A stretch of 64,000 nt of DNA from NCBI GenBank assembly GCA_026003215.1, contig BPGV01000001.1:1827729-1891728 (forward strand). The letters are read 5' to 3'. This DNA is from Bacteroidia bacterium (lineage in GTDB: Bacteria; Bacteroidota; Bacteroidia; SpSt-205). Shown piece after piece: positions 3,895-60,705 of the stretch. The notes beneath the pieces are model-generated. The model did not search any database, was not told the origin of the DNA, and saw only the letters and a list, made by a program, of their open reading frames with translations. Position 1 is the first letter of the stretch; each line of letters begins with the position of its first letter. A program made the position numbers and the translations under genes.

Positions 3895-3909
3895 ATCGCC
3901 CCAAATATA
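3895..3909 (-). promoter_or_regulatory. -7 promoter box abutting the secreted-protein start
   Basis: Perfect TAnnTTTG (TATATTTG at 3909-3902) followed by the 7-base spacer GGGCGAT and then ATG 3894. The same GGGCGAT spacer is used by the fibre gene at 35916. Confidence 0.65.
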
Positions 3910-3975
3910 CGGCATAAAAAACCCCCTCTTGTAAAAAGTAACCGCACTTTTGGATTTGGGCCCGGATATTTGCGT

Positions 3976-4635
3976 ATGGCTCTCTCGCCTGCCGAAAAAG
4001 CCGTCCGCATCTTGCCTGTCTTAGAGGCCCGCTATGGGAATGCCACCACCGAGCTTCATTACCAAAACCCCTATCAGCTTACTGTGGCGGTGGTCCTCTC
4101 TGCGCAATGCACGGACGTGCGGGTCAATCAGACTACCCCGGCTTTTTTTGCGCGTTTCCCGGACTTTGCTACGCTGGCCCAGGCTACCCCCGAGGAGGTA
4201 TTCCCGTATATCCGCAGCATCTCTTATCCCAATAGCAAAGCCCAGCGCTTAGTAGCCCTCGCCCGAGAAGTGATGGACAAATACAATGGCGAGCTGCCCA
4301 AAGACCCGGAAGAGCTTCAAAAGCTCCCCGGCATCGGCCGGAAAAGCGCTAATGTGATTAGTTCGGTCCTGTGGGAAGCCCCAGTCATCGCCGTAGATAC
4401 ACATGTTTTCCGCGTAAGTCGGCGTCTGGGCCTGGCCCAAGGCAAAACCCCCGAAAAAGTAGAAGAAGAGCTACGCCAGATTATCCCCCCAGCGTATTTA
4501 GGGCGGGCACACCACTGGCTTATCCTCTTTGGACGCTATCACTGCACGGCCCGCAAGCCCCAGTGCGAACGCTGCCCCTTCACCGACTTATGTGCCTACT
4601 ACGCAGCCCATGTAGCCTCCAAAGCCGCCCCATAG
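3976..4635 (+). CDS. nth: Endonuclease III (DNA glycosylase/AP lyase)
   Basis: The 219-residue protein is of normal length for Nth, which removes oxidised pyrimidines and cleaves the abasic site in base excision repair. The helix-hairpin-helix LPGIGRKSANV carries the catalytic Lys, and VDTHVFRVSRRL carries the catalytic Asp. The C-terminal cysteines follow the C-x6-C-x2-C-x5-C pattern of the [4Fe-4S] cluster (CTARKPQCERCPFTDLC). An in-frame TTG six bases upstream is possible, but ATG 3976 is preferred; GATATTTG (one mismatch to TAnnTTTG) ends 3 bases before it. The gene is divergent from the secreted-protein gene. Confidence 0.95.
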   Translation: MALSPAEKAVRILPVLEARYGNATTELHYQNPYQLTVAVVLSAQCTDVRVNQTTPAFFARFPDFATLAQATPEEVFPYIRSISYPNSKAQRLVALAREVMDKYNGELPKDPEELQKLPGIGRKSANVISSVLWEAPVIAVDTHVFRVSRRLGLAQGKTPEKVEEELRQIIPPAYLGRAHHWLILFGRYHCTARKPQCERCPFTDLCAYYAAHVASKAAP

Positions 4636-4654
4636 CCCCGTCAGTTATTAGTTT

Positions 4655-4666
4655 TACTTTTGTCTC
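4655..4666 (+). promoter_or_regulatory. -7 promoter box abutting kynA
   Basis: TACTTTTG at 4655-4662 matches TAnnTTTG and is followed by TCTC and ATG 4667. The same TCTC spacer precedes the fibre gene at 40762. Confidence 0.65.
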
Positions 4667-5653
4667 ATGCAGGAAAAGTTAGAAGCCCTGCGCCGTAAAT
4701 ACAGCCTCCTCGGCCAGGACATGGAGACCTATTTGGAAGGGCTCCTGTATAGCCGTTCCCTCACCTACTGGGACTACATAGAACTGGATACCCTCCTTAC
4801 GCTGCAGAAGCCCCGAACGGATTTCCCGGATGAGGTGATTTTTATCGTGTATCACCAGATTACGGAGCTGTACTTCAAGCTGATAAAGGTAGAGTTGGAG
4901 CTTCTTTCGCAGGAGAGCTGGCAAGACGAACGTACTCTCCTTAAGCGCTTGCGGCGGATAGAAAGTTACTTTCGGCACCTCGCGCATAGCTTTGAGATTA
5001 TGCTGTATGGGATGGACTCGGAAAACTTTTTGCGGTTTCGGACGGCGCTTTTGCCAGCCAGTGGCTTTCAATCCGTACAGTTCCGTGAGATAGAGCTCAT
5101 GAGTACAGGCCTACGGCAGCTACTGGCCCCCCACCACCGCGATCTCAAAACCGACCATATAGATGAGCTCTATAACTACATCTACTGGAAGTACGGCAAC
5201 TTAGACAGTCGCACAGGCGAAAAAACCCTTACCCTAAAAATCTTTGAGCAAAAATATGATGGACACCTCCGGGCTATGGCCCATGCTTGGGTGGAGAAGA
5301 ACCTCAACGCGCGTTTAGAACAAGCGCTCACTAAGGGTCAGGTTTCGGATAAGCTTATTCAGGTTTTTCGGGAAGTGGATGTGCAAGTAAATATTTATTG
5401 GCGATTTGTGCATTTGCGTACGGCCGCGTATTACCTTAAGAGTGAGGAAAAGGCGTTACCCTCTACGGGCGGGACCAACTGGCAAGAATACTTACCGCCG
5501 TATAACCAAGGGATTCAGTTTTTCCCAAGCTTGTGGAGTGAGGAGGAGAAGGCGGAGTGGGGTAGAGGGAGTTTTTTGGAGCGGTTTCGGCGGGAGGTAG
5601 AGGCTACTTGGCGGCGTGGGCCTTCGGCGCCTTTGGCTCAAGAGGCTCGTTGA
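4667..5653 (+). CDS. kynA: Tryptophan 2,3-dioxygenase
   Basis: The haem enzyme opens the indole ring of tryptophan to N-formylkynurenine, the first step of the kynurenine route to catabolism or NAD. Family segments are in order: TYWDYIELDTLLTLQ near residue 34, the distal-site segment VYHQITELYFKLI near 62, SGFQSVQFREIE near 130, a haem-ligand candidate in WRFVHLRTA near 245, and STGGTNWQEYLPP near 270 corresponding to the family GTGGT motif. Length (328) is slightly above the usual bacterial size because of a charged C-terminal tail. No other kynurenine gene is next to it. Its 3' end overlaps the convergent ispF by 16 bases. Confidence 0.88.
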   Translation: MQEKLEALRRKYSLLGQDMETYLEGLLYSRSLTYWDYIELDTLLTLQKPRTDFPDEVIFIVYHQITELYFKLIKVELELLSQESWQDERTLLKRLRRIESYFRHLAHSFEIMLYGMDSENFLRFRTALLPASGFQSVQFREIELMSTGLRQLLAPHHRDLKTDHIDELYNYIYWKYGNLDSRTGEKTLTLKIFEQKYDGHLRAMAHAWVEKNLNARLEQALTKGQVSDKLIQVFREVDVQVNIYWRFVHLRTAAYYLKSEEKALPSTGGTNWQEYLPPYNQGIQFFPSLWSEEEKAEWGRGSFLERFRREVEATWRRGPSAPLAQEAR

Positions 5654-6132: not shown

Positions 6133-7195
6133 AGGGACGCAAATCTATGCCACTTTGTGGGGGCAAGGGTGGGTCTCGCCGGTGGCGTATGTGCCTTCCT
6201 CGTTGTTAGAAGCTGGCTATAAGGTTCAGGCAGAGCTTAGTCAGGGGTGGGGTGGAGGGCATACGGTACCTTTCCTTAGCGACTCTTCTTGGTTGATATC
6301 CAGGAAGATAGAGATAGATACGGGAACTGTGCTCTATATGGAAGGGGTGCAAGGGGAGATAGCCGTATATCAGGAGAATAGGCTTTTATTTTTAGGCAAC
6401 GCCCCTTGGGTAGCTATTCCCCTAATGGGGCGTGGGGTGGTAGGAGTGCGTATTCGGAGTAGAGGTAAGGGCGGTATATTGGGGGGTATTTATCTTCTTA
6501 GAAAGGATTCCTTGGTAGGTTGGCCAGCCGAGCCGTACCCCTCTTGGGTAGGGGATACATGCGAAGGGGACTGCAGTCACGTAGGACGTAGAGTACATAG
6601 CGTAGAGGCTCTGTTGCAACACAGGGACTCCTGTTTAGCCTTTGCGGAAATGCCCCCTGCGCGCGTACAAGTGGCGCTAAGCAAACAGCATAAGCAGTTT
6701 TGTATTGCCGCTTCGCCCCTTCCTTCTACACGTAACCCCCACGCAGGACCTCTTCCATTTCCGGTGTTTGTGGGCATGCTATTAGGGGTGGGGTTAGGGG
6801 TATTTTTCTTGCCTGTGCTCCGGGAGGTGATTATGGTCGGTCTTCATAGGCCTATCCCTACGAACTTTCTGGAAACGGTAGGTGGATTGACCCTTCTCTT
6901 AGGGCTGTCTGGGGCAGTGTTAGGCGATTGGGGGTGGGTAGGCCTTTTTGCGGGAGCGTTGGTGGGGGAAATGCTTTTTGGGTTATTCATGGAAGGCACT
7001 ATCCATCGGTACTGGCAGAGTTGGCTATCAGGGGCCTTGGTAGCGCTTATGGTGCGATTGGTATGGGGACCTGCGCTTCCTTGGGTACTGGTGGGCTTGT
7101 GGGGGATGCGGGCTGTGCGTTTGAGCCTACACATGCCTATTTTTCTGTACCTTTGCGCTGCCCAGGTTTTTATCTATTTCTTAATGACTGCATGA
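6107..7195 (+). CDS. DUF4271-like membrane protein upstream of hemD
   Basis: The 362-residue protein has a signal-like N terminus (MRKLHFWLIGTQIYATLWGQ), an extracytoplasmic region to about residue 225, then about five hydrophobic segments to the C terminus. In many Bacteroidota a DUF4271 protein precedes uroporphyrinogen-III synthase, and the order and topology here fit that family, though I cannot confirm similarity without a search. Its function is unknown. The stop overlaps the hemD start as ATGA, indicating translational coupling. ATG 6107 overlaps the divergent ispF coding region by 26 bases. A TATATTTG at 6078-6085 could be its -7 box with a longer leader. Confidence 0.65.
   Translation: MRKLHFWLIGTQIYATLWGQGWVSPVAYVPSSLLEAGYKVQAELSQGWGGGHTVPFLSDSSWLISRKIEIDTGTVLYMEGVQGEIAVYQENRLLFLGNAPWVAIPLMGRGVVGVRIRSRGKGGILGGIYLLRKDSLVGWPAEPYPSWVGDTCEGDCSHVGRRVHSVEALLQHRDSCLAFAEMPPARVQVALSKQHKQFCIAASPLPSTRNPHAGPLPFPVFVGMLLGVGLGVFFLPVLREVIMVGLHRPIPTNFLETVGGLTLLLGLSGAVLGDWGWVGLFAGALVGEMLFGLFMEGTIHRYWQSWLSGALVALMVRLVWGPALPWVLVGLWGMRAVRLSLHMPIFLYLCAAQVFIYFLMTA
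6133..6147 (-). promoter_or_regulatory. -7 promoter box abutting ispF
   Basis: TAGATTTG on the minus strand (6147-6140) is 7 bases from ATG 6132. A TTG lies 16 bases further upstream (6166-6164). The element is inside the coding sequence of the divergent gene. Confidence 0.6.
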
Positions 7196-7965: not shown

Positions 7966-7994
7966 CTTTCTAAAAAACCCTTTATATTTGCGCC
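7962..7994 (+). promoter_or_regulatory. Complete promoter of the secretion operon (porP)
   Basis: TTG at 7962-7964, then 18 bases, then TATATTTG at 7983-7990, then CGCC and the GTG start at 7995. Both elements match the Bacteroidota -33/-7 pattern. The predicted transcript would begin at or within about a base of the start codon. Confidence 0.7.
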
Positions 7995-8924: not shown

Positions 8925-8934
8925 TCCTAATCTC

Positions 8935-10064: not shown

Positions 10065-10094
10065 TCTTGGAAAAATATCTAACTATATAGACTT

Positions 10095-10946: not shown

Positions 10947-10952
10947 GAAAAT

Positions 10953-13594: not shown

Positions 13595-13628
13595 ATGCCC
13601 CCTTCCGAGGGAAGGGGGCATTTTCTTT
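13595..13628 (+). terminator. Intrinsic terminator of the secretion operon
   Basis: An 11-base perfect stem (13596-13606 with 13610-13620), extendable by one A-T pair, has a 3-base loop and is followed by TTTTCTTT. It lies 28 bases past the gldN stop. Its T-tract runs directly into the TACTTTG box of nuoH. Confidence 0.93.
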
Positions 13629-13639
13629 TACTTTGTGCC

Positions 13640-18434: not shown

Positions 18435-19946
18435 GGTGCGGTAGGTGAGGGCCTCCGCTATGTGTTCGGGTCGGATGCGTTCGCTGCCGGCTAAGTCGGC
18501 GATGGTACGAGCTACTTTGAGGATGCGGTCGTAGGCACGTGCGGAGAGCTGGAGGCGTTCCATAGCGCTCTCTAAGAGGCGACGGCCGGGTTCGTCCAGC
18601 CGGCAGAACTCTTCTACGACTTTGGGGGGCATCTGGGCGTTGGTGTAAACCTGGGGTATGTCGCCAAAGCGTTTCAGTTGCAGGGCGCGGGCACGCTCTA
18701 CCCGTTCTCGGATAGTGGCGCTATCTTCTCTGGGGCCGCTATCGGCTAAGGCTTGGGTTTCCACCGGGGTCACTGAAATGTGCAGGTCAATCCTATCTAA
18801 GAGCGGCCCGGAGATGCGTGCGGTGTAGCGTTGTACGGCGCCGGGGGCGCAGGTGCAGGGACGCATAGGGTGAGTATAGTAGCCACAGGGGCAGGGATTC
18901 ATCGCTGCTACCAGCATGAACCGTGCGGGATACTCTACGCGGAAGCGTGCCCGAGCGATTACGATACGGTGTTCTTCCAAAGGCTGCCGAAGTACTTCTA
19001 ACACTTGGCGCTTAAACTCGGGTAGCTCGTCCAGAAAAAGTACGCCATTATGGGCGAGGCTAATCTCGCCGGGCATCGGATAAGCCCCACCCCCCACCAG
19101 CGCTATGTCGCTGATAGTATGATGGGGCGCCCGAAAAGGGCGGCGTGTGACAAGGCCCTGGTGGTCGCGCAGCAGCCCCGCCACAGAATGGATACGTGTG
19201 GTTTCCAGCGATTCTTCCAAGGAAAGAGGGGGGAGAATGGTAGGCAGTCGGCGCGCCAACATGGTTTTCCCCGCGCCTGGGGGCCCAATCAGTAAGATGT
19301 TATGCCCTCCAGCCGCAGCTATCTCTAAGGCGCGTTTTACTTGGGCTTGCCCTTTGACTTCGCTCATGTCTACCTCGTCGGTGGTAGGCTGGCTCTGGAA
19401 AAGCGCTCGTGCATCTATGAATACGCGGTGGAGCGGCAGCCGTCCACTCAGGAAAGCCACCGTCTCTGCCAGCGTCTTGGGGGCATACACCTCTATGTCT
19501 TTGACAATGCCGGCTTCGCCAGCGTTGGCCGGGGGGAGGATGAGGCGGGAGGTGCCTTGCTTGCGTGCCGCAATAGCTATTGGCAGCGCGCCTCGAATAG
19601 GCATAAGGCTCCCATCCAGCGAAAGCTCCCCCATAATCAGCGTGTGATTCCACGCCTCCCCGGCTACTTGCCCAGAAGCCGCCAAGATTCCGATGGCTAT
19701 AGGAAGGTCATATGCTGTTCCTTCTTTGCGCAGGTCTGCCGGCGAGAGGTTTATAATGATTTTCCCCCGTGGAAAAGAAAACCCACTATTGCGTATAGCT
19801 GTCTCTACGCGTTCTCGGCTTTCTTTGACGGCGTTATCCGGCAGACCCACAATAGCATACCCTAACCCCGGTGAAAGATTGACCTCTACGGTTACGGGAT
19901 AGGCATAGATGCCGTAGAGCGCCGCAGCCGGTACTTTCACCAGCAT
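18408..19946 (-). CDS. comM: YifB/ComM family Mg-chelatase-like AAA+ ATPase
   Basis: ComM is a hexameric helicase that promotes branch migration during natural transformation. The N-terminal Lon-like domain (residues 1-170, GIYAYPVTVEVNLSPGLGYAIVGLPDNAVKESRERV) precedes the AAA+ domain with Walker A GPPGAGKTM and Walker B VLFLDELPEF. CPCGYYTHPMRPCTC is a conserved cysteine cluster, and the C-terminal Mg-chelatase-like lid ends in AEALTYRTLDR. The 512-residue length is standard. The start is 28 bases from the divergent membrane gene at 19975. Confidence 0.94.
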   Translation of the reverse strand: MLVKVPAAALYGIYAYPVTVEVNLSPGLGYAIVGLPDNAVKESRERVETAIRNSGFSFPRGKIIINLSPADLRKEGTAYDLPIAIGILAASGQVAGEAWNHTLIMGELSLDGSLMPIRGALPIAIAARKQGTSRLILPPANAGEAGIVKDIEVYAPKTLAETVAFLSGRLPLHRVFIDARALFQSQPTTDEVDMSEVKGQAQVKRALEIAAAGGHNILLIGPPGAGKTMLARRLPTILPPLSLEESLETTRIHSVAGLLRDHQGLVTRRPFRAPHHTISDIALVGGGAYPMPGEISLAHNGVLFLDELPEFKRQVLEVLRQPLEEHRIVIARARFRVEYPARFMLVAAMNPCPCGYYTHPMRPCTCAPGAVQRYTARISGPLLDRIDLHISVTPVETQALADSGPREDSATIRERVERARALQLKRFGDIPQVYTNAQMPPKVVEEFCRLDEPGRRLLESAMERLQLSARAYDRILKVARTIADLAGSERIRPEHIAEALTYRTLDRSTWGL

Positions 19947-19962
19947 AGGGGGGTAAGATAGG

Positions 19963-19974
19963 TAACTTTGGCCG
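19963..19974 (+). promoter_or_regulatory. -7 promoter box abutting the 19975 membrane gene
   Basis: TAACTTTG at 19963-19970 matches TAnnTTTG and is followed by GCCG and ATG 19975. On the other strand comM has only a weaker candidate, TATCTTAC, before its start. Confidence 0.6.
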
Positions 19975-21222
19975 ATGGTGGTACTGGACCCCTTGCGAGA
20001 ACTCTTCGGGTTTGGGTTGGTAGGCGCATGGCTGGGCTATACCGCTTATTGGCTGGAATGGCACCGTAAGCCCTTTTGGGTGTATGCCGTTTTAGTGGCC
20101 CGCATCTTCGCAGCATGGGCCTTCGGATGGCTCTATGCTCGCTATTATTGCTTTGGCGATACCTTAAAAGTATATCTTACCGCTGGCCGCCTCTCCTACT
20201 ACCTATGGCATGAACCGGGCGTAGCCTTAGCTTTATTTTTCAAAGAGTTTTCCTACAACTGGGAAAAAGTAGGTTGGCAGGTGTTCTTTCAAGATATAGA
20301 GCTTTTTGGCTACGATTACGAGTGGAGCGAACCCAGTAACTATATTTTTTATCGCTTGGCCGTCTTGCCTTATGTAGCGGCTGGGGGGAGTTATTATGGG
20401 CTTCAGGGGCTGATGGGGCTGATAGGCGGCTTGCTTACATATGCGGCCTACAGGCGGTGGGAGACAGTTATTTCTTTGCCACGCTATTTCTGGGTGTTTC
20501 TTTTCTTATGGCCGAGTGTAGCGTTTTGGTTTTCTGGGGCGCTCCGAGATACGTTGGTGTTTCCGCTTATGCTATATGGGGCGGCATGGGTGGCTTCGGT
20601 AAGGCACTGGCGCGATATAGGGGGGGGGCTGGCCCTGGTAGCCGTGCTGCTCCTGCGCCCGGAAAGTATGCCCTTGGCGATAGGAGTGGGACTCTTCTTG
20701 CGCTTCCCTTCGTGGTGGGCAATAAGTGTGGGAAGTGTAGTTGGCGTCCTCGCTTTTATGTATTGGGTAGGCCCCTGGGCCTATCGGTATCGTGCGGAAG
20801 CTTTGGCGCCGGTACTGCATCCAGAGCTGCCTGAGGCCAGTGTGTTTTACTTGGATTTTAAGCCTACGCCTTGGGGGGTATGGAAGGGCTTAGGGGGAGG
20901 GATAGTCTATGGACTCTTAGGGCCTTTGCCTTGGCATATTCAGAAGCTTTTGGTAGCTGTTTATGCGCTGGAAGCTTGGGTCGGTGCAGGGCTTATGGCG
21001 TATTGGGGGCTGTGGGCGTGGTGGCGTGGGGGATGGAAGCGGTCTTATGTCGCCCTGCTCCTATTAGGGGTTATAGTAGTAGGAGGAGTGGCGATGGCGG
21101 TGCCGTATTGGGGGACGCTGGCGCGGCAGCGAGTCTATGGGCTGTGTTGGATGGCCTTAGGGATAGCTGCTGCCGTCCAAGAAGGTACGCAGCGTGCCCA
21201 AAACCGCCTGGGCCAGCCGTAG
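19975..21222 (+). CDS. Polytopic membrane protein of unknown function
   Basis: The 415-residue protein has about ten hydrophobic segments and is rich in Trp, Tyr and Gly. Conserved-looking loops include RYYCFGDTLKVYLTAGRLSYY near residue 60 and the charged loop DIELFGYDYEWSEPSNYIFYR near 105. The fold pattern resembles the lipid-linked sugar polymerase/GT-C type membrane proteins of Bacteroidota, but I see no diagnostic motif and make no functional claim. Its last 66 bases overlap the convergent hydroxyacid dehydrogenase, the longest tail-to-tail overlap in the window. Confidence 0.7.
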   Translation: MVVLDPLRELFGFGLVGAWLGYTAYWLEWHRKPFWVYAVLVARIFAAWAFGWLYARYYCFGDTLKVYLTAGRLSYYLWHEPGVALALFFKEFSYNWEKVGWQVFFQDIELFGYDYEWSEPSNYIFYRLAVLPYVAAGGSYYGLQGLMGLIGGLLTYAAYRRWETVISLPRYFWVFLFLWPSVAFWFSGALRDTLVFPLMLYGAAWVASVRHWRDIGGGLALVAVLLLRPESMPLAIGVGLFLRFPSWWAISVGSVVGVLAFMYWVGPWAYRYRAEALAPVLHPELPEASVFYLDFKPTPWGVWKGLGGGIVYGLLGPLPWHIQKLLVAVYALEAWVGAGLMAYWGLWAWWRGGWKRSYVALLLLGVIVVGGVAMAVPYWGTLARQRVYGLCWMALGIAAAVQEGTQRAQNRLGQP

Positions 21223-25363: not shown

Positions 25364-26644
25364 TTAGGCGCCTACGGGAATGAGGGTAGGTTTGGCCGCT
25401 TTTTCAAACTCTTTTCGGTATTTTTGGACGATAGCCCGCACGGGCCATACGGCTGCATCCGCCAAGGCACAAATCGTACGCCCTTCTATTTGATTGGCTA
25501 CCGAGAGCAGTCGGTCAATATCGCTATAAGTAGCCGTTCCATCCAGGAAGCGGTGCAAGATTTGCTTCATCCAGCCGGTGCCTTCGCGGCAGGGGGTGCA
25601 TTGGCCGCAGGATTCGTGTTTGTAGAAAGCTGCGATACGGTAGGCAAAGCGCACCATATCGGTATCTTCGTCCAGGACTAACATGCCTGCGGTGCCCATC
25701 ATAGAGCCTACTTTACGGAGGGCATCAGCGCTCATATGCACGCCTTCTATTTCCTCAGGAGTGAGTATAGGCGTGGAAGAACCGCCAGGAACCACGCCTT
25801 TGAGTTTTTTGTCATTGCGGATGCCTCCGGCTACCTCGTAGATAAGGTTTGTAATCAACATGCCACTTGGGTACTCATATACGCCGGGGCGCCGGACATG
25901 CCCGGAAATCCCATAAAGGACGGGCCCTGGGTGTTCGGGTGCGCCAATCTGCGTATAAGCAGCGGCCCCTATCCGTAGGACAAGGGGTACATGTGCCAAG
26001 GTTTCTACATTATTGATAGTGGTAGGACAGCCCCACAAGCCTTTTTGTGCGGGGAAAGGCGGCTTATACCGCGGGTAGGCTCGCTTGCCTTCCAAGGACT
26101 CCATGAGCCCGGTTTCTTCGCCGCAGATGTAGGCGCCAGCCCCTCGGTGGAGGTACAGCTCCGTGGAAAACCCGCTGCCTAAGATGTTTTTCCCAATATA
26201 TCCCCGGGCGTAGGCTTCATCTACGGCTGCTTGGAGGCGGTCAATCCAATCGGCGTATTCCCCTCGGATATAGACATAAATCGCGTCTATTTGCATGGCA
26301 TAGGCGGCAATGAGGGCCCCTTCTACAAAGGCATGGGGATTAAACTCAAAAATCCTACGGTCTTTACAGGTCCCGGGTTCGGATTCGTCGCCGTTGGCGG
26401 CCAGGTAGCGGGGGATACTCTCTTTTTTAGGGGGCATGAAGCTCCACTTGAGGCCGGCGTTGAAGCCAGCGCCCCCTCGGCCACGGATATTAGCCGCTTT
26501 GACTTCCTCAATCACTTGGGCTGGGGTCATTTCGGTGAGGACCTTTCGGAGTTGGGCATAGCCGCCATGAGCCTCGTATACCGCTATCTGATGAAGGTCG
26601 GGAATACGCGGAAGGAGGAGCGGTTTATAACTGCGCCAATCCAT
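25364..26644 (-). CDS. nuoF: NADH-quinone oxidoreductase subunit F
   Basis: NuoF carries the NADH site, FMN and the [4Fe-4S] cluster N3 of Complex I. The NADH segment RGRGGAGFNAGLKW, the FMN segment GAYICGEETGLMESLEGKR and the cluster ligands ESCGQCTPCREGT with a later Cys (RTICALADA) are intact. The 426-residue length is standard. It stands apart from other nuo genes; not even nuoE or nuoG adjoins it. A TTCCTTTG box (one mismatch) lies 4 bases before ATG 26644. Confidence 0.95.
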   Translation of the reverse strand: MDWRSYKPLLLPRIPDLHQIAVYEAHGGYAQLRKVLTEMTPAQVIEEVKAANIRGRGGAGFNAGLKWSFMPPKKESIPRYLAANGDESEPGTCKDRRIFEFNPHAFVEGALIAAYAMQIDAIYVYIRGEYADWIDRLQAAVDEAYARGYIGKNILGSGFSTELYLHRGAGAYICGEETGLMESLEGKRAYPRYKPPFPAQKGLWGCPTTINNVETLAHVPLVLRIGAAAYTQIGAPEHPGPVLYGISGHVRRPGVYEYPSGMLITNLIYEVAGGIRNDKKLKGVVPGGSSTPILTPEEIEGVHMSADALRKVGSMMGTAGMLVLDEDTDMVRFAYRIAAFYKHESCGQCTPCREGTGWMKQILHRFLDGTATYSDIDRLLSVANQIEGRTICALADAAVWPVRAIVQKYRKEFEKAAKPTLIPVGA

Positions 26645-26682
26645 ACCTCAAAGGAAAACGATTTTAGGCAAAGAAAAAGTTG

Positions 26683-34321: not shown

Positions 34322-34334
34322 GAAAGCAAAGGTA
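34322..34334 (-). promoter_or_regulatory. -7 promoter box abutting the M16 peptidase gene
   Basis: TACCTTTG on the minus strand (34334-34327) followed by the 5-base spacer CTTTC and ATG 34321. Confidence 0.65.
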
Positions 34335-35861: not shown

Positions 35862-35873
35862 GTCGCAAAGGTA
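35862..35873 (-). promoter_or_regulatory. -7 promoter box abutting the DUF2079-like gene
   Basis: TACCTTTG on the minus strand (35873-35866) followed by CGAC and ATG 35861. A near-copy of this element and start is found at 39682-39707. Confidence 0.65.
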
Positions 35874-35876
35874 GGA

Positions 35877-35915
35877 TTTGGCGAGTTCGCTTTTTTTTTT
35901 TACCTTTGGGGCGAT
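35877..35915 (+). promoter_or_regulatory. Poly-T promoter of fibre gene 1
   Basis: TTTG at 35877-35880, a 20-base spacer that ends in a run of T, then TACCTTTG at 35901-35908 and 7 bases to ATG 35916. The T run is 11 bases (35891-35901) and lies in the spacer, where a change in length would alter element spacing. Confidence 0.6.
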
Positions 35916-37829
35916 ATGCGTACGCGTAAGGCTTTTCTTGGGATTGGCTTGCTGCTCAGTAGTGCGCCGCTCTGGGCGCAAAATGTCGGTATTGGTACGG
36001 CGATGCCGCATCCTGCGGCGAGGCTGCACGTGGCTGGAACGGACATGGGGGTGCTCTTGCCTACGGCTGCCCTCACGAGTGCCACGGTATGGACGCCGCT
36101 GGTAGGTACGCCGCAGGCCGGGATGATAGTGTATAATACGGCCACGGCAGGTACTCCCCCCAACGATGTAAGTCCAGGGTACTATTACTGGGATGGCAGT
36201 CGGTGGGTTCGGATGGATGGGGGGACCAAAGCGTGGCTGCTTACCGGGAATGCGGGGACGAACCCGACAGTGAACTTTTTAGGGACGACGGATGCGCAGC
36301 CGCTGGTGATACGGGTGAACAATCAAGAGACCTTCCGCTTCAATACCCCGGGCACCGTAGCCCCAGGGTGGAGCATCCAGCGAGGTGGGGGGAACACCCG
36401 CGGGCTGCATGCGGTAGATTTGCAAAGTAGTCGGAGTGCAAACACGCAAGTAGCCAGTGGCGCTTACAGTGTCATTAGTGGGGGTAGGGACAACACCGCC
36501 AGCAGTGGTTACAGTACAGTCAGCGGGGGCTATCAAAACACCGCTACGGGCAATTTCAGCACAGTCGCTGGTGGATACCAAAATCAGGCCAGTGGTTCTT
36601 ATGCCTTAGCCGCCGGCTATCAAAACGTGGCCTCAGGCTCTATGTCTACTGCCTTAGGAGATCGGGATACAGTTTTAGGTAGTGGTTCCATGGCAGTAGG
36701 ATCAGTTCACCGGGTGGAACCACTTGTAGCTGCGGCAATAGGAGGAGTGAATAATAAGATACTTGGTTCTGGAGCCGAGCAAGTCATAATCGGAGGGCAA
36801 GGAAATACGATAATGAATTCTGGGGGTTCAGTCATAGTAGGATCAGATCGCTCTGTTATTATGTCTGGGGAGAGCTGGAAAGGTATATACTCATGCTCGC
36901 AATGCTCTATCGGCACAGCGATCACGGGCGGGGGATGGCAATCTATCATAGTAGGAGGCGCGCACAATGCTATCCGCACGAATGGGGCCAATAGTGCAGG
37001 GGGTGCTTGTGCCATTATAGCCTCTGGCAATAGCGTAGTTGCTCCTAATGGGGAGGCTGTTTGGGGTGCTACCATCATAAGTTCTGGCCGTGATACGGTG
37101 ATAAGTGGTAAGAGCTATGCAGGATATAGAAGTAAATACCATGGAGCTGTATTCGGGCTTGGCTGCGCTTACTGTGATTTGCGAGGATATTATGTATATG
37201 GCATAGGATATGGCGTACGACCTACTGCTGACCCTAATACGCATGCAGATCGTCTATATATTTTTGGAAATGGTAACACGATTCCTGGCTATTTGACTAT
37301 CCCTACCGAAGAGCCTCCCGGAAACCAGCCTGTGGTATCTCGGCCAGGACGAGTAGCTATTAATCGCTGGACTGAGCCTCAGTATCCCCTTCAGGTAGGG
37401 GAGTCCGGGAATACTTCGACTGGAAATGGGGCGTATGTTTCGGGTGGAGGCACATGGACAAATGGTTCTTCTATTTCTTTCAAAGAGCGGTTTGTGGATT
37501 TAGATAAACAGGATATATTGTCTCGCGTGTGTAGGCTGACGATAAAGGGGTGGTACTACAAGGGAACGGAGGAATATCACATAGGTCCATTTGCGGAGGA
37601 GTTTTATAGCCTTTTCCGTACGGGTGCGCAGGATGCGCCAGATGTAGAAAAGTATATTTCTACGGTTGACCCTGCGGGTGTGGCTCTGGTAAGCATTCAA
37701 GCTTTGGTAGAGCGCTTAGAATCTCAGGCTCGTCGAATAAGTCAGTTAGAAGAGCAGCTTAGAACGTTGTCTGAGCGTGTAGCCGACTTAGAAGCGCAAA
37801 ATAGGCAGCTTCGCTCGCAGGGCCAGTAA
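35916..37829 (+). CDS. Tail-fibre-like surface protein with YadA-type head repeats and S74-type C-terminal chaperone domain
   Basis: The 637-residue protein has a signal peptide ending PLWAQ, then an NVGIGT...RLHVAGT module common at the start of Bacteroidota fibre proteins. Residues about 170-320 are YadA-like head repeats of the form ASGxYSTVSGGYQNTA. An irregular region follows. Near residue 510 SSISFKERFVDLDKQDIL to YHIGPFAEEFY is an S74-type intramolecular chaperone region that normally trimerises and is cleaved off, and a coiled coil ends the protein. It is probably a trimeric surface adhesin; there are no phage structural genes nearby. The start is fixed by the promoter 7 bases upstream. 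Confidence 0.82.
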   Translation: MRTRKAFLGIGLLLSSAPLWAQNVGIGTAMPHPAARLHVAGTDMGVLLPTAALTSATVWTPLVGTPQAGMIVYNTATAGTPPNDVSPGYYYWDGSRWVRMDGGTKAWLLTGNAGTNPTVNFLGTTDAQPLVIRVNNQETFRFNTPGTVAPGWSIQRGGGNTRGLHAVDLQSSRSANTQVASGAYSVISGGRDNTASSGYSTVSGGYQNTATGNFSTVAGGYQNQASGSYALAAGYQNVASGSMSTALGDRDTVLGSGSMAVGSVHRVEPLVAAAIGGVNNKILGSGAEQVIIGGQGNTIMNSGGSVIVGSDRSVIMSGESWKGIYSCSQCSIGTAITGGGWQSIIVGGAHNAIRTNGANSAGGACAIIASGNSVVAPNGEAVWGATIISSGRDTVISGKSYAGYRSKYHGAVFGLGCAYCDLRGYYVYGIGYGVRPTADPNTHADRLYIFGNGNTIPGYLTIPTEEPPGNQPVVSRPGRVAINRWTEPQYPLQVGESGNTSTGNGAYVSGGGTWTNGSSISFKERFVDLDKQDILSRVCRLTIKGWYYKGTEEYHIGPFAEEFYSLFRTGAQDAPDVEKYISTVDPAGVALVSIQALVERLESQARRISQLEEQLRTLSERVADLEAQNRQLRSQGQ

Positions 37830-37975: not shown

Positions 37976-37990
37976 TACATTTGCAGGGGT
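37976..37990 (+). promoter_or_regulatory. -7 promoter box abutting the AT-rich membrane gene
   Basis: TACATTTG at 37976-37983 matches TAnnTTTG and is followed by CAGGGGT and ATG 37991. No TTG is seen at the expected distance. Confidence 0.55.
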
Positions 37991-40727: not shown

Positions 40728-40761
40728 TTGCAAGTGTCTTTTTTTTTTTTACCTTTGTCTC
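40728..40761 (+). promoter_or_regulatory. Poly-T promoter of fibre gene 2
   Basis: TTG at 40728-40730, 19 bases, TACCTTTG at 40750-40757, then TCTC and ATG 40762. A run of 12 T (40739-40750) fills the downstream part of the spacer, as in fibre gene 1. Confidence 0.65.
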
Positions 40762-49758: not shown

Positions 49759-51105
49759 ATGCATACCGTGCTGGTGGTAGATGATGAACCCACTGTCGTA
49801 GAAGCCCTCACGGCCCAACTCCTCCCCTTAGGCGTGTGGATAGAAGGGGCATATAACGCAGAAGAGGCCCTGAACCTCTTATCTGCGCAGCCGGCGGTAA
49901 TCATAGCCGATTACCTGATGCCGGGCATGCGGGGAGATGACTTCCTCATAGAAGCCCATAAAAAACACCCGGAAGCCCGCCTTATCTTGCTTACTGGTCA
50001 GGCTGGCGCGGATAATGTAGGCAAAATCATTAATCATGCGCGCCTATTTCGGTACATCCCTAAGCCGTGGGAAGTAGAAGACCTGCGCCTGACTGTACGC
50101 GAAGCCCTCCGCAGCTATGAGCAAGAAAAAGAACTGGCTAAGCGCGCCCAGCTTACCCAAGAACTGGTACTTTTTCTCCAAGATCTTTTAGCGTGTGCTG
50201 GCACTGCCGCGCTGGAAGATCTCCGGAGTGCGTGGGCAAAGCGGCTCTTTGGGAGTGAAGGTTCACCTGTACAATCTCCTTCTGAGGTAGAAGCGTCGGC
50301 GCACGCTATCTTTGAACGGGTTCTTGAGCTGCGCAGGGGGCACCTCACACTCTTAGAAGACTTGGAGAGACTGGTAGAGAACCGTACAGCCCACCTTGTG
50401 GCCGTCATGCAGGAGCTCAAAGCGCTGGCCTCCCAGCGGGAAGCGTGGATAAAGATTATTTCTCATGACCTGCGGGGGCCGCTGGCCGGCCTACGCCAAA
50501 TAGCTACGCTCCTCCAACAAAACCCCTCTCCTGAAAACCAAAAACGCTATGCTACACTTCTGGAGAAAAGTCTATCGGAGTTAGAGCGCTATGTAAAAAA
50601 TCTTTTAGACCTTACGCGCCTGTCGCATAAGGAAATAGCGCTTAGTTTTGAAAGATTTTCTTGGCGAGAGATGGCGCAGCGCCTCCACGCCCTGGTAGCC
50701 CCGAGCTTAGAAATGAAAGGCATTACTTGGGTAGAAGAAGTAACCGATACCCAGGGGTGGGGCGACCCCGTCTATGCGGCCGAAGCCTTATACAATATCG
50801 TCGCCAATGCGGTGAAGTTTACGCCGGCGGGGGGTAAGGTTATCTTTCGGGTGCGGGCCGAGGATACGCGCGATCACGATATAGTAGAGATACAGGATAC
50901 GGGGATAGGTATGGATGCGGAGCAGGTGGCCGGTCTGTGGGACCCCGTACGGCGACGCAGTCGGCCCGGCACCGCCGGCGAAAAAGGCACCGGCTTAGGC
51001 CTGGCCGTAGCAAAGGCAATTTTAGACCAGCACGGCATAGCAGTGGAAGTGCTCTCGGCCCCAGACACTGGTACCACCTTCCGGCTCTTGTGGCCAAGGA
51101 CGTAG
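49759..51105 (+). CDS. Response-regulator receiver fused to a histidine kinase
   Basis: The 448-residue soluble protein starts with a receiver domain (acidic pocket VVDDE, phospho-acceptor Asp51 in IIADYLMPG, conserved Lys in YIPKPW). A helical linker (about 125-225) leads to a HisKA domain with ISHDLRGPL (His236) and a HATPase domain with N box EALYNIVANAVKFT, DTGIGMDAEQ and GTGLGLAVAK. There are no membrane helices or sensor domains, so input likely comes through phosphorylation of the receiver. No partner regulator is adjacent. ATG 49759 begins the receiver; an upstream frame to 49669 lacks domain content. Confidence 0.88.
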   Translation: MHTVLVVDDEPTVVEALTAQLLPLGVWIEGAYNAEEALNLLSAQPAVIIADYLMPGMRGDDFLIEAHKKHPEARLILLTGQAGADNVGKIINHARLFRYIPKPWEVEDLRLTVREALRSYEQEKELAKRAQLTQELVLFLQDLLACAGTAALEDLRSAWAKRLFGSEGSPVQSPSEVEASAHAIFERVLELRRGHLTLLEDLERLVENRTAHLVAVMQELKALASQREAWIKIISHDLRGPLAGLRQIATLLQQNPSPENQKRYATLLEKSLSELERYVKNLLDLTRLSHKEIALSFERFSWREMAQRLHALVAPSLEMKGITWVEEVTDTQGWGDPVYAAEALYNIVANAVKFTPAGGKVIFRVRAEDTRDHDIVEIQDTGIGMDAEQVAGLWDPVRRRSRPGTAGEKGTGLGLAVAKAILDQHGIAVEVLSAPDTGTTFRLLWPRT

Positions 51106-51115
51106 CTTTGTGCCC
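51103..51115 (+). promoter_or_regulatory. -7 promoter box abutting the epimerase gene
   Basis: TAGCTTTG at 51103-51110 overlaps the stop codon of the preceding kinase gene and is followed by TGCCC and ATG 51116. Confidence 0.55.
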
Positions 51116-52051: not shown

Positions 52052-52109
52052 TCCCAACTTCCTTTTGCTATACGCTGAAACTCCAGGGCTATTCTGTTAC
52101 TTTGTCGTA

Positions 52110-52481: not shown

Positions 52482-52483
52482 CT

Positions 52484-53497
52484 TTACGCCTCCAGGGGAA
52501 GGCAAGGTATAGAACCTGTGCCGAACTTCCACGGCCGAGGCGTCAGTCCCTTCAGTTTTTTATAAGGGAGGTAGGGGAGCTCAGGAAGGGCAGGACGACT
52601 TTTCTGCCGCAGATAGCGGAAAAAATCCCAGTGGGCCCGTGCGATGGCTCGTACATGGGGCCACCCTGCCCGCATCCATAGATAGATCGCTGCTGGCGCA
52701 TCCAAGAGCAAACGCCAAAAAACTTTCCTATATTGTTCTATTCCCCTTAGGTTTTCCCATAGCATCAGTAAGCTATTGCGAAAGTTGTAATAGGTTTTTT
52801 GCGGTTTTTTGGGATGTAGGGAGGCTCCGCCTACGTGATATACTACGCTGGTGGGTTCGTAGCCGACCATCCAGCCGGCACGCTGGAGGCGCCAGCACAG
52901 GTCTATCTCCTCCATGTGCATGAAGTAGTAGGGTTTGAAGAGGAGGCCCTTTTGGCTTTCAAGTACCGCCTTTGTGCGCAGGAGGAAAGCGGCCCCACTG
53001 GCCCAGAAGATTTGGCAAGGCTTATCGTATTGGCCATAATCTTTTTCTCCGCGTCCCCGGCACGTGGGATAGCCCCACGGGTCTAAAAATCCCCCCGCTG
53101 CACCGGCATATTCAAAGGCGGTTTTGTCGTGCCAGCTCAGCACCTTGGGTTGGACCGCAGCTAAACCGGGATGCGTCTCCATACATTTTACTAAAGCGGA
53201 TAGCCATAAGGCCGTGACCTCTACATCACTATTAAGCAGGGCCATATAAGGCACCTCATGGCCATGAGCTGAAAAAAAATGCTGGTATCCTCCGGCATAG
53301 CCGAGATTTTCTTCGTAACGTAGGGTTTTTACGGTAGGAAAGTTTTCTTTTAGCCAAGGGACCAAAGGGGGCTCGCTGGCATTATCTATCACCCATACGG
53401 TGAAAGACGGGTACTCTGTGGCCAGAATGGAAGGCAAAAAGGCTTTGAGCCACTCACGGCCGCCATGGGCTAAGATGACGACATAGACGGGGGGCAC
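52484..53497 (-). CDS. Family 2 glycosyltransferase
   Basis: The GT-A fold is clear: VYVVILAHGGREWLKAFLPS, VWVIDNASEPP, NLGYAGGYQHFF, and LLNSDVEV as the DxD-like metal-binding site. FMHMEEIDLCWRLQRAGW is the acceptor-side ED motif, and NFRNSLLMLWENL lies in the C-terminal part. It resembles rhamnosyl- or galactofuranosyl-transferases of surface polysaccharide synthesis. GTG 53497 (337 residues) is chosen because CACTTTTG, one mismatch to the -7 consensus, ends 4 bases before it. The longer frame to 53629 would overlap the divergent nrnA start. Confidence 0.88.
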   Translation of the reverse strand: MPPVYVVILAHGGREWLKAFLPSILATEYPSFTVWVIDNASEPPLVPWLKENFPTVKTLRYEENLGYAGGYQHFFSAHGHEVPYMALLNSDVEVTALWLSALVKCMETHPGLAAVQPKVLSWHDKTAFEYAGAAGGFLDPWGYPTCRGRGEKDYGQYDKPCQIFWASGAAFLLRTKAVLESQKGLLFKPYYFMHMEEIDLCWRLQRAGWMVGYEPTSVVYHVGGASLHPKKPQKTYYNFRNSLLMLWENLRGIEQYRKVFWRLLLDAPAAIYLWMRAGWPHVRAIARAHWDFFRYLRQKSRPALPELPYLPYKKLKGLTPRPWKFGTGSIPCLPLEA

Positions 53498-53544
53498 CCT
53501 GCAAAAGTGCCTCTCTTTGGAGAGACTCCCATGGCTTTTGTGCG

Positions 53545-53558
53545 TATCTTTGTTCAAG
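53545..53558 (+). promoter_or_regulatory. -7 promoter box abutting nrnA
   Basis: TATCTTTG at 53545-53552 matches TAnnTTTG, followed by TTCAAG and ATG 53559. On the minus strand CACTTTTG at 53509-53502 serves the divergent glycosyltransferase. Confidence 0.6.
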
Positions 53559-54623
53559 ATGCCTGAGGTACCCTCTTGGTGGGAAGCTGTGACGCACGCC
53601 CGTCGTATTTTTTGTGTAAGCCATCCCAAGCCGGATGGAGATGCCGTAGGTTCTTTGTTAGGCCTATACCATGCTTTCCGACGTAGGGGGCAAGAAGTTA
53701 CTTTGGTTTTGCCAGACCCCGTGCCGAGCTACCTTCAGTTTTTGCCCGGCTGGCAGGAGATATTGGTTTGGAGCGAGGCCCCTGAGGCTATCACCCAAGC
53801 CGCTGGACAGGCCGACCTATTCTTCTGCGTGGACTTCGGGAAGTGGGACAGGCTCCCCAGCCAGTTGCGCGCCCTCATAGACCCCGAACGGCTCGTATGG
53901 GTGGATCATCACGTAGATAGCGAACCCCTTAGCACCCAGTGGAATATATGGGTGCCTACAGCGGCCGCTACTTGCCAGATTCTGTATGAGCGTCTTTTGC
54001 GACCCTGGTACGGAGAACCCCTGCCTTTACCTGCCCGGATAGCCCTCTACACAGGGATGGTGACGGATACGGGGGGGTTCCGCTTTCGGAGTGTCCAGCC
54101 GGAGACTTTGCGTAGCGCGGCTGAGCTCATAGCGCCGCCCTTCCCCTTAGAAGCTATCCACCATTATATATTTCAGCGAAAGAAGCTGTCTACCCTGCGC
54201 TTACAAAGCTACCTTTTACAAAATCGCCTGCGTAGGTTAGAGCCCTTGCCTGTGTGGCTGGTGGATATCCCAGCGCAAGTATTGGCGGAGTTTGGGGCGA
54301 CGTGGGAGGAGGTAGAGACGCTCCCTAATCAGATCTTGGCTTTGGAGGGGGCGCTCTTAGTGGTCGTGCTGAAAGAATACCCAGAAGGCACGCGAGTGAG
54401 CCTACGCAGTGTAGGGGAGTTTCCCTGTCATCAGGTGGCGCAGCGCTATGATGTAGGTGGAGGCCACCGCAATGCCGCCGGAGCCACCTTGTATGCCCCG
54501 CTCGCAGAAGCCGTAACTTTTACCGAAAATCTTTTACGAAACGAATATGCGGATAAGCTATTGGCTGACTATCGGGCTTTTTTGGACAGTCTGGAGCTGC
54601 AAGCCCTCGGCAAGTACGCCTGA
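53559..54623 (+). CDS. nrnA: DHH-family oligoribonuclease/pAp phosphatase NrnA
   Basis: NrnA degrades short RNA oligonucleotides and dephosphorylates pAp. CVSHPKPDGDAVGSLLGL holds the first metal-binding Asp residues, FCVDFGKWDRLP the next, and VWVDHHVD the DHH motif. The C-terminal DHHA1 domain ends in YDVGGGHRNAAGATL, with the conserved GGGH substrate-binding segment. The 354-residue length is slightly above average. The end contains the start of the FKBP lipoprotein gene, overlapping by 77 bases. Confidence 0.93.
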   Translation: MPEVPSWWEAVTHARRIFCVSHPKPDGDAVGSLLGLYHAFRRRGQEVTLVLPDPVPSYLQFLPGWQEILVWSEAPEAITQAAGQADLFFCVDFGKWDRLPSQLRALIDPERLVWVDHHVDSEPLSTQWNIWVPTAAATCQILYERLLRPWYGEPLPLPARIALYTGMVTDTGGFRFRSVQPETLRSAAELIAPPFPLEAIHHYIFQRKKLSTLRLQSYLLQNRLRRLEPLPVWLVDIPAQVLAEFGATWEEVETLPNQILALEGALLVVVLKEYPEGTRVSLRSVGEFPCHQVAQRYDVGGGHRNAAGATLYAPLAEAVTFTENLLRNEYADKLLADYRAFLDSLELQALGKYA

Positions 54624-55762: not shown

Positions 55763-56355
55763 TCCAGATAGGCCTAACGCTTTTAGGCGGGTACTTGTTG
55801 GGTTCCTTAGTGCCGGGCCTCTGGATAGCCCGCTGGCAAGGCATAGATATTCGTCGGGTAGGCAGTGGGAATATTGGCAGTACCAATGTGTATCGGGCTT
55901 TGGGGCTGTGGGCAGGACTGGTGGTGCAGGTCGTAGATATAGGAAAAGCCCTTTTAGCGGTGTGGCTGGCCCAAAGGCAGGGCTTACCCTTATGGGCGGT
56001 ATATAGCACGGCCACCGCAGCGGTACTGGGACATATTTATCCGATTTGGGCGGGCTTCAGAGGGGGGAAAGGCATCAATACCCTACTGGGCGGTATGCTC
56101 ATGATAGAGCCGGCCAGTGCTGTCGCCGCTTTGGGCGTATTCCTCATAGCCGTAGCTCTCTCAGAGATTGTTTCTGTAAGCTCCCTTACGGCGGTAAGTA
56201 GTTTCCTCTTTTGGCACAGTGTGGTAGGCGCTGGGAGCGCCGTAGGGTATGGATTTGGCCTTTTTTGGGTAGGACTTGTTTTTTATACGCACCGAGAGAA
56301 CCTTCGGCGCCTTTGGAACGGCACGGAACCGCGCATAGGCCGCCGAAAACCCTAA
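55753..56355 (+). CDS. plsY: Acyl-phosphate:glycerol-3-phosphate acyltransferase PlsY
   Basis: PlsY adds the first acyl chain to glycerol 3-phosphate from acyl phosphate in phospholipid synthesis. The family loops are present: VGSGNIGSTNVYRALG, the GHIYPIWAGFRGGKGINTLLG segment, and the third loop with HRENLRRLWNGTEPRIG. About five membrane helices fit the 200-residue length. It is followed by an NDP-sugar pyrophosphorylase with its own box. Confidence 0.94.
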   Translation: MEVIQIGLTLLGGYLLGSLVPGLWIARWQGIDIRRVGSGNIGSTNVYRALGLWAGLVVQVVDIGKALLAVWLAQRQGLPLWAVYSTATAAVLGHIYPIWAGFRGGKGINTLLGGMLMIEPASAVAALGVFLIAVALSEIVSVSSLTAVSSFLFWHSVVGAGSAVGYGFGLFWVGLVFYTHRENLRRLWNGTEPRIGRRKP

Positions 56356-56365
56356 CTTTGACGCC
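56353..56365 (+). promoter_or_regulatory. -7 promoter box abutting the nucleotidyltransferase gene
   Basis: TAACTTTG at 56353-56360 begins in the stop codon of plsY (TAA) and is followed by ACGCC and ATG 56366. Confidence 0.6.
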
Positions 56366-59015: not shown

Positions 59016-59788
59016 ATGCTTGGGTAAAACATACCTCCCTCCTGTGGATAGGATGGGCCGGGCTAATCCTCGTAGGATGTTCTCGACGAGGGGTTGCCGC
59101 ACGAAAGACAACACCCTCACTCCTATCCGATGCAAAAAGCATTGTCCTAAAGCTGAGCAAGCGGTCGGCTTTTACCCCTTTCCGGGCGAAATATCAGGCC
59201 TTGTATGAGGGAGAGAAACGGCAATCTTTCCAGCTCCGCCTCATCGTACCAGCAGAGACCGTGGTGTGGCTCTCCGCAGGGCTTATGGGCTTTGAAGGTT
59301 TGCGGGGCCTCTGGAGAGGAGATAGCCTTTTCCTCCTCAATCGCTTGACCCAGGAAGCTTATTTCGGGCGGGCTGACAGTCTGCGGGACTTTTTGCCCGC
59401 GGTAGGCCCGAGGGAACTTGTAGCCCTGCTTACCGGCGGCTGGTCTGCCGGGCTCTCCCGCCTCCCCTGGGAATGGAACCCAGCAGCACGCCAACTTCAT
59501 ACCACCTGGCGACGGTATCACCTTGCCCTTGCACTTATCCTCCAAGAAGCCCCCTGCCCCCGGGCCTGGACCCTCACCGAACCGTCCGGCCTCAGCTATC
59601 ACATAGCGTACGAGTGGGCTTCTTGCGCTGACCCCCTTCCTAAAAAGGTTATCCTCACCCTCCCCGACAACTCTCGGCTAACCCTCATCCCCAAACAAAT
59701 AAGCTTCGGAGCTACGGCTGCTGACCTGCCGCCCTTCCAAGTGCCAGCCGGCTACACCCTGAAACCCCTCGCTGCGTTTCGTTGGTGA
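59012..59788 (+). CDS. DUF4292 family lipoprotein
   Basis: The signal MNAWVKHTSLLWIGWAGLILVGC ends in a lipobox Cys. The mature domain (FTPFRAKYQALYEGEKRQSFQLRLIVPAETVVWLSAG, then SLFLLNRLTQEAYFGRADSL and a C-terminal strand set) matches the DUF4292 family, which resembles LolA-like beta-sandwiches in Bacteroidota. It follows the TPR protein gene, a common arrangement in this phylum. Function is not established. The end overlaps mqnD as GTGA. Confidence 0.8.
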   Translation: MNAWVKHTSLLWIGWAGLILVGCSRRGVAARKTTPSLLSDAKSIVLKLSKRSAFTPFRAKYQALYEGEKRQSFQLRLIVPAETVVWLSAGLMGFEGLRGLWRGDSLFLLNRLTQEAYFGRADSLRDFLPAVGPRELVALLTGGWSAGLSRLPWEWNPAARQLHTTWRRYHLALALILQEAPCPRAWTLTEPSGLSYHIAYEWASCADPLPKKVILTLPDNSRLTLIPKQISFGATAADLPPFQVPAGYTLKPLAAFRW

Positions 59789-60588
59789 AGCGTCCCCTCA
59801 CCGTAGCTATAAGCCCTTGCCCCAATGATACCTTCCTATGGGGGCCGCTGGCCCTCGGCCAAGTGCGTTCCCCTTTCAGCTTGCGGTTTCATTATGAGGA
59901 TATCGAAACGCTCAATAAACTCGCTGCTGCTGGCGCCGTGGATGTGGTCAAGCTTTCTTTTTTTCAATATGCGCGGCTTCCTCGGGGGCTGTATCGCCTT
60001 TTGCCGGCAGGAGCTGCGCTGGGATATGGCGTAGGCCCGCTCCTGGTAGCTCAAAAGCCTCTCCCCTATCCAGAGCTTAGAAACGCACCCATCGGCATAC
60101 CCGGCTGGGGCACCACCGCTTATAGCCTTTTACGCTTTTTTGCCCCTCACGCCGAAAACCTCATAGCAATGCGCTATGACCTACTGATGCCCGCGGTAGT
60201 GCAGGGGGAGATTGCGGCAGCGGTGATTATTCATGAGAGTCGTTTTACTTATCCTTCGTATGGGCTGGTCTGTATGCAGGATTTGGGGGCCTATTGGACG
60301 GAGCGGACGGGCTTCCCGATACCGTTGGGCGGGGTAGCCGTCAAGCGAGAAGTGCCCCGTCGCTGGCTTACTCGCCTTTTACGGCGAAGCCTCCGCCAAG
60401 CCTGGAAGGGTCCTTCTCTGAGCCTTGCTGATTTTATCGCACAGCATGCGCAGGAGATGGCTCCCACCGTGCAAAAGGCCCACATAGACCTCTATGTCAA
60501 TCGCTTTACTTACCGTTTAGGGCCGGTGGGGTCAGCGGCGGTACGCTTTTACCTGCGCTGGGTCCAAGCGGTTATATCTCAGCGCTGA
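59785..60588 (+). CDS. mqnD: 1,4-dihydroxy-6-naphthoate synthase MqnD
   Basis: MqnD acts in the futalosine pathway of menaquinone synthesis, cleaving the cyclic intermediate to 1,4-dihydroxy-6-naphthoate. VAISPCPNDTFLWGPLALG at the start and DIETLNKLAAAGAVDVVKLSFFQYARL are hallmark segments. Further on AGAALGYGVGPLLVAQKP, AVIIHESRFTYPSYGL and GFPIPLGGVAVKRE match. The 267-residue length is normal. GTG 59785 overlaps the previous stop. It implies the classical menaquinone route is not used here, and other mqn genes should be elsewhere. Confidence 0.93.
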   Translation: MKRPLTVAISPCPNDTFLWGPLALGQVRSPFSLRFHYEDIETLNKLAAAGAVDVVKLSFFQYARLPRGLYRLLPAGAALGYGVGPLLVAQKPLPYPELRNAPIGIPGWGTTAYSLLRFFAPHAENLIAMRYDLLMPAVVQGEIAAAVIIHESRFTYPSYGLVCMQDLGAYWTERTGFPIPLGGVAVKREVPRRWLTRLLRRSLRQAWKGPSLSLADFIAQHAQEMAPTVQKAHIDLYVNRFTYRLGPVGSAAVRFYLRWVQAVISQR

Positions 60589-60660
60589 GTCGTTCTCAGG
60601 CGTCCCTCAAAGGCCCAAAACGCTAACCGGAAGGCTCTACAAGCACCTTAGCGGGCCGAT

Positions 60661-60705
60661 GCCAAATATTGGCTTTTCCACTAAACTTCCTACCTTAGCG
60701 GCGAT
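60661..60705 (+). promoter_or_regulatory. Promoter of the giant glycine-rich gene
   Basis: TTG at 60669-60671, 19 bases, TACCTTAG at 60691-60698 (one mismatch), then 7 bases (CGGCGAT) to ATG 60706. GGCGAT before ATG is the same as in the fibre-1 and secreted-protein genes. A small 5-base hairpin at 60661-60673 with TTTT may be a weak terminator for mqnD. The gap 60589-60705 otherwise shows nothing. Confidence 0.5.

Follow-up and report, generated by a model that had tools for sequence, protein, structure and literature searches.

Genes of the Bacteroidia genome studied here, and of the family to which it belongs (the host family), are often preceded by a TAnnTTTG box ending only a few bases before the start codon. 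We interpret these boxes as −7 elements of ordinary primary-sigma promoters, most of the detectable ones giving mRNAs that are predicted to be leaderless or nearly so in the host family, a reading to which we assign a probability of roughly 87%. What is seen in the sequence is the identity of the box, its sharp spacing, its promoter-like flanks, its enrichment before first genes, its conservation within the family and its movement together with the start codon. Transcription would begin at the start codon or 0 to 4 bases before it, a distance borrowed from Flavobacterium, with exact 5′ ends deduced from the position of the box. Ribosomes would then initiate on the 5′-terminal AUG or GUG with initiator tRNA, using neither a Shine-Dalgarno (SD) sequence nor an upstream leader.

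The window, a stretch of 64,000 nucleotides, comes from a host genome of 2.27 Mb in one contig. A first-pass annotation had reported thirteen perfect boxes in it, and all of them were found at the places given, ending 4 to 7 bases 5′ of the named starts. It had also listed weaker versions: those before 2415, 26644 and 53497 (minus strand) and before 13640 and 52110 (plus strand) were recovered with 7 to 11 bits, while those before 3976 and 60706 (plus strand) turned out to be poor matches. The perfect boxes, followed by the weaker ones, are given below; NuoF is listed in order of position.

TATATTTG, 3902..3909, minus strand: box 7 bases before ATG 3894; protein with a T9SS C-terminal sorting domain; predicted start (coding-potential start at 3915)
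TACTTTTG, 4655..4662, plus strand: box 4 bases before ATG 4667; Trp_dioxygenase family; most upstream possible start
TAGATTTG, 6140..6147, minus strand: box 7 bases before ATG 6132; IspF, YgbB family
TATATTTG, 7983..7990, plus strand: box 4 bases before GTG 7995; PorP/SprF; most upstream possible start
TAACTTTG, 19963..19970, plus strand: box 4 bases before ATG 19975; most upstream possible start
TTCCTTTG (one mismatch), 26649..26656, minus strand: box 4 bases before ATG 26644; NuoF; 10.9 bits; most upstream possible start
TACCTTTG, 34327..34334, minus strand: box 5 bases before ATG 34321; M16 peptidase
TACCTTTG, 35866..35873, minus strand: box 4 bases before ATG 35861; DUF2079 membrane protein; predicted start (coding-potential start at 36011)
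TACCTTTG, 35901..35908, plus strand: box 7 bases before ATG 35916; signal-peptide adhesin-like protein; back to back with the 35866-35873 box in a 54-bp divergent gap
TACATTTG, 37976..37983, plus strand: box 7 bases before ATG 37991; no Pfam family; start predicted from the box and the ORF
TACCTTTG, 40750..40757, plus strand: box 4 bases before ATG 40762; signal peptide, no Pfam family; most upstream possible start
TAGCTTTG, 51103..51110, plus strand: box 5 bases before ATG 51116; NAD-dependent epimerase
TATCTTTG, 53545..53552, plus strand: box 6 bases before ATG 53559; DHH/DHHA1 phosphoesterase
TAACTTTG, 56353..56360, plus strand: box 5 bases before ATG 56366; nucleotidyl transferase; most upstream possible start
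TTACTTTG (shifted or one mismatch), 13628..13635, plus strand: box 4 bases before GTG 13640; NuoH; 10.1 bits; coding-potential start at 13595
CACTTTTG (weak), 53502..53509, minus strand: box 4 bases before GTG 53497; glycosyltransferase; 8.4 bits
TATTTTGG (weak), 2421..2428, minus strand: box 5 bases before ATG 2415; radical SAM; 7.2 bits; coding-potential start at 2472
TTACTTTG (weak), 52097..52104, plus strand: box 5 bases before GTG 52110; DUF4476; 10.1 bits

The starts at 4667, 6132, 7995, 19975, 26644, 40762 and 56366 are the most upstream start codons possible in frame, so a longer protein is impossible at these places. Those at 3894, 35861, 35916 and 37991 depend in part on the box itself and, together with 40762, differ from the picks of a coding potential that ignores the motif. 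The chance expectation of 0.06 matches given in the first-pass annotation was too optimistic, since some starts and boxes had been partly picked together. The conclusion on the window boxes holds despite this free choice of starts: repeating the test on motif-free starts gave an exact box at 4 to 7 bases for 8 of some 57 window genes, compared with about 0.29 expected (Poisson p ~1e-9).

Three pairs of divergent starts in the window, 28 to 61 bp apart, hold putative back-to-back promoters (35861-35916, 19946-19975 and 53497-53559), and the median divergent gap in the host genome is 61 bp. Boxes at a spacing of 7 often read TTTG-CGGCGAT or CGGCGGT-ATG, a longer string common between box and start (for example at 35901-35915 of the window); among several examples with CGGCGAT before the ATG, no tie to one gene type was seen. 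Regarding NuoF (25364-26644), its best identity among named records is only 67%, to Balneolales proteins and an unnamed Bacteroidetes MAG, a likeness that suggests horizontal transfer or a sparse database.

A genome-wide peak at 4 to 7 bases, which the first-pass annotation had proposed as a check, is strongly present in the host genome and in every other host-family species examined. Over the entire host genome, TAnnTTTG-N(4-7)-ATG gave 462 matches and the reversed control 58, an eightfold excess. We also performed an annotation-free count, pairing every box with every ATG in 464 kb of sampled sequence (20 stretches of 20 kb), and obtained 48, 25, 13 and 17 pairs at k = 4, 5, 6 and 7 (k being the number of bases between box and start codon), compared with about 4.5 per position elsewhere; the peak is sharpest at 4 to 5 bases. 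Spacings of 20 to 27 amounted to 181 matches summed over eight positions of the host genome, the leaderless spacing being about five times commoner per position than the usual leadered one. At k = 4, the counts were 162 against 49 for ATG, 85 against 50 for GTG and 42 against 55 for TTG, so that ATG and GTG, and not TTG, rise above background after the box. These whole-genome pattern counts are independent of our home-made gene calls, and both agree.

To place the boxes relative to genes, we called 350 genes in a host-genome sample using a home-made, self-trained gene finder that makes no use of the motif. With these starts, an exact box was found at k = 4-7 in 76 of 337 usable genes (22.6%), at k = 16-39 in 12 and at k = 40-69 in 13. 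Exact boxes precede 21 to 24% of genes in four host-family genomes, in contrast to 0, 1.6, 1.9 and 6% in four other Bacteroidia, the comparator gene sets being small, and incomplete in AT-rich genomes. A weight matrix obtained by expectation-maximisation on relatives only, and then tested on the host genome at k = 4-8, detected a box in 32% of all genes, with 1 to 3% at control positions; the values for three comparator Bacteroidia were 0 to 4%, and 13% for a fourth. In the host genome this share reached about 47% (42-56%) in divergent (first) genes and 58% in genes lying 25 to 59 nt behind a same-strand gene, and was 17% at less than 25 nt. Allowing neighbouring in-frame starts, 67% of divergent genes were boxed in the host genome (null 2-5%) and 71% in genome G307.

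Pooling the host family, 99 of 204 divergent genes were boxed, compared with 47 of 261 genes that follow a same-strand gene at under 25 nt (p = 2e-12). Exact boxes before the divergent genes of this pool numbered 78 at k = 3-8 and 12 at k = 16-25, with few elsewhere. For the roughly 69% of boxed genes with a spacing of 4 or 5, the predicted leader is 0 to 1 nt long, and for the others 1 to 4 nt; leaders above 10 nt between promoter and start are not predicted for boxed genes, and few boxes lie at 16 to 60 nt. Among close-following same-strand genes, 3% were boxed in G307 and 17 to 28% in three genus members, and values of up to 28% require internal promoters. As for the scale claimed in the first-pass annotation, the box is seen in some genes only: between roughly one half and two thirds of those that are clearly first, and far fewer of the operon-internal ones. 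Between a third and a half of the genes that are clearly first lack a recognisable box at the 4-7 spacing; these may have weak boxes, other sigma factors, wrong starts or real leaders, which we take together as one group.

The learned motif matches the published Bacteroidota −7 element. T−12 and A−11 are nearly invariant, and G is avoided at both N positions of TAnnTTTG, at 5 to 11% (host-family pool, expectation-maximisation weight matrix). Taking the transcription start to be 4 nt past the box, AT content peaks at −18 to −20 and at −28. In mapped promoters of F. johnsoniae the −7 box lies 4 to 5 nt from the transcription start, AT peaks are found near −18 and −28, and the −33 TTTG element is not evident (PMC6847099). 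The match between both sets of AT peaks indicates that the box behaves as a sigma-A promoter, with mRNAs predicted to carry leaders of 0 to 4 nt. We found no positional peak of TTTG near −33, which does not exclude a sigma-A promoter, as it is also not evident in the mapped F. johnsoniae promoters. The sigma-ABfr promoters of F. johnsoniae, F. psychrophilum and B. thetaiotaomicron share with the host boxes the −7 consensus TAnnTTTG, the scarcity of G at −9 and −10, the AT peaks at about −18 and −28 and a weak or absent −33 TTTG. Their leaders, however, average 33 nt or have medians of 24 and 32 nt, whereas the modal predicted leader in the host is zero. One RpoD-type sigma was found in the host genome (262 bits, 300-aa frame), with a score below the general cut-off, like in the other Bacteroidia tested. 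Positions −14 and −13, immediately 5′ of the box, favour C (51%) and G (46%) in the host-family pool, with a consensus near CGTAnCTTTG that is perhaps an extended −7 element.

Several starts can be fixed by homology. In IspF, the distance from the start codon to the conserved RIGxGxD motif downstream varies between 6 and 21 bases among species of the host genus, and the box stands 7 (once 4) bases before the start codon in nine of the ten genus species with an IspF match; the spacing is 10 in the tenth species and 13 in the sister genus. The position of the start therefore differs by as much as 15 nt among species, with the box moving along, and the length of the N-terminus varies. The same pairing of box and start, again with starts fixed by homology, was observed in lipoyl-domain, UvrA-like, EVE-domain and nucleoside diphosphate kinase orthologues, all of them named by N-terminal sequence only. 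In rpsU (bS21), whose N-terminus is fixed, the box lies 5 to 7 bases before the ATG in four host-family genomes, with no SD:

L017 19229-19390 (G000), L141, L148 and L169: rpsU (bS21) in the host family

In the readable cases from other Bacteroidia families, the rpsU box is mostly 23 to 34 bases upstream, and several have a strong SD. As judged from these sequences, gene and box are unchanged and the leader has been removed in the host family. An extended SD of rpsU has been described across Bacteroidota, and SD-based autoregulation of this gene in Bacteroidia (PMC9976891). In common with that system, bS21 is present in the host family and keeps the RAAY motif with the Tyr54 equivalent; unlike it, rpsU has no SD and its box is 5 to 7 nt from the ATG, so SD-based autoregulation appears to have been lost in the host family. 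An apparent leaderless box was also seen 7 to 8 nt before the GTG of infC (IF3) in two genomes (G300 L271 and G306 L273, at about 1470), and was not seen in the host genome.

One could argue that the box is a translation signal, that is, a U-rich or UUUG ribosome-binding element within a longer leader, and no promoter. Its position fits a ribosome-binding site, and the host family lacks SD sequences. Yet the box equals the Bacteroidota sigma-A consensus, and AT content peaks at one and two helix turns 5′ of it, as in mapped promoters; besides, the odds of finding it are 4.3 times higher for divergent than for close-following same-strand genes, and rpsU carries the same box at 23 to 34 nt in other families, all of which makes this explanation very improbable. 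Scarcely better are the prospects of a promoter with ordinary leaders, in which the true start would usually lie further in than the ATG found 4 to 7 nt downstream. Although leaders in the phylum are, by published accounts, normally longer, and some of the first-pass starts differ from coding-potential ones, motif-free starts coincide with the start codon after the box in 106 of 142 boxed genes, the N-termini of rpsU, IspF and the lipoyl-domain protein fix the starts by homology, and the annotation-free count gave no second ATG peak between 10 and 59 nt past the box. Chance or base composition, aided by picking starts to suit the boxes, has a negligible probability: TAnnTTTG is common in Bacteroidota DNA and some starts had been chosen freely in the first-pass annotation, but this idea is refuted by the whole-genome counts, the annotation-free spacing peak, the motif-free starts that yield the same peak, and the excess in relatives.

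It could also be that leaderless transcription is widespread in Bacteroidota and has been missed by scans for TATAAT-like boxes, a scenario that we deem unlikely, if slightly less so than the previous ones. In its favour, the survey of 953 genomes by Zheng et al. (2011), which reported leaderless genes in 1 of 37 Bacteroidetes/Chlorobi genomes (2.4%), modelled Pribnow-like (TATAAT-like) signals only, and two groups outside the host family show part of the pattern. One is family f86 (G342, G375 and G404; L195-L201, L251-L263), the only one to come close among about 450 other Bacteroidota genomes. Its members are AT-rich genomes of about 3 Mb from the same class as the host, with exact boxes at 4 to 7 bases before 17 to 20% of genes in two of the three, plus many leadered boxes, and may represent an independent second case. 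The other, order-mate G308, is intermediate, with 13.5% of only 52 genes and a mild pattern excess. On the other hand, RNA mapping in three Bacteroidia gave 3.7% of leaders under 10 nt in B. thetaiotaomicron, 5.5% of leaderless mRNAs in F. psychrophilum and 13% of leaders of 10 nt or less in F. johnsoniae (PMC6847099). Moreover, the excess over the reversed control is mostly 1- to 1.5-fold in the approximately 450 genomes, compared with 5- to 21-fold in the other host-family species, and the leaderless-to-leadered ratio per position is mostly 0.5 to 2, compared with about 3.5 to 6 in the host family. Outliers G316, G041 and G349 showed no strong gene-level effect.

The pattern was shared by 11 of 11 other host-family species tested (ten of the same genus and one of the sister genus), a spread indicating that the trait marks the family, whose ancestor probably acquired or completed it. 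The leaderless reading of the first-pass annotation is thus supported by the peak, as a property of the host family with a weaker parallel in f86 and not as a rule of Bacteroidota. One comparative paper has suggested leaderless mRNAs in Bacteroidetes from base composition, and our search of open-access papers returned no report of a Bacteroidota clade dominated by leaderless mRNA, or of it as a rule.

On the translation side, we detected no SD enrichment in boxed or unboxed genes, the SD core being at background level, and no A-rich leader signal on unboxed genes. These unboxed genes may be of the SD-less leadered type known in Bacteroidia. The idea that the trait was caused by losing bS21, bS1 or IF3 is unsupported, given that all three are present in the host genome, bS21 with its RAAY motif kept; bS1 scores somewhat lower in the host family. 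The simplest view, drawn from what is established about leaderless initiation, is that all bacteria can recognise a 5′-terminal AUG with ribosomes loaded with initiator tRNA, and that the host family came to depend on this where its leaders had already lost SD. Operon-internal genes more often lack the box and have no SD, and are hence probably reached through reinitiation or coupling.

The leaderless regimes of Mycobacterium, Deinococcus and many archaea resemble that of the host family in having a box just 5′ of the start, in involving a large part of the first genes, and in using AUG or GUG starts with no SD there. The host family differs in its phylum and in its box, which is TAnnTTTG instead of a TATAAT-like or TATA/BRE element. 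Its remaining genes also lack SD, unlike those of genomes that mix SD and leaderless genes.

Taken together, we favour with moderate confidence a scenario in which leaderless transcription became the default of the host family. Promoters would have moved against start codons genome-wide, with loss of the SD feedback of rpsU; first genes would be translated by recognition of 5′-terminal starts, with bS21, bS1 and IF3 kept, and f86 would have gone independently part of the way. While the three mapped Bacteroidia species use leaders, this small-genome family appears to have dropped them at most recognisable promoters. Bacteroidota ribosomes keep their anti-Shine-Dalgarno hidden, which raises the question of how they choose starts. 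Comparing leadered and leaderless versions of one gene between close families, as in rpsU and IspF, offers a natural experiment on which leader features matter. In practical terms, the box-to-start rule fixes gene starts straight from DNA in host-family genomes, where standard gene finders that expect Shine-Dalgarno or A-rich leaders may misplace them.
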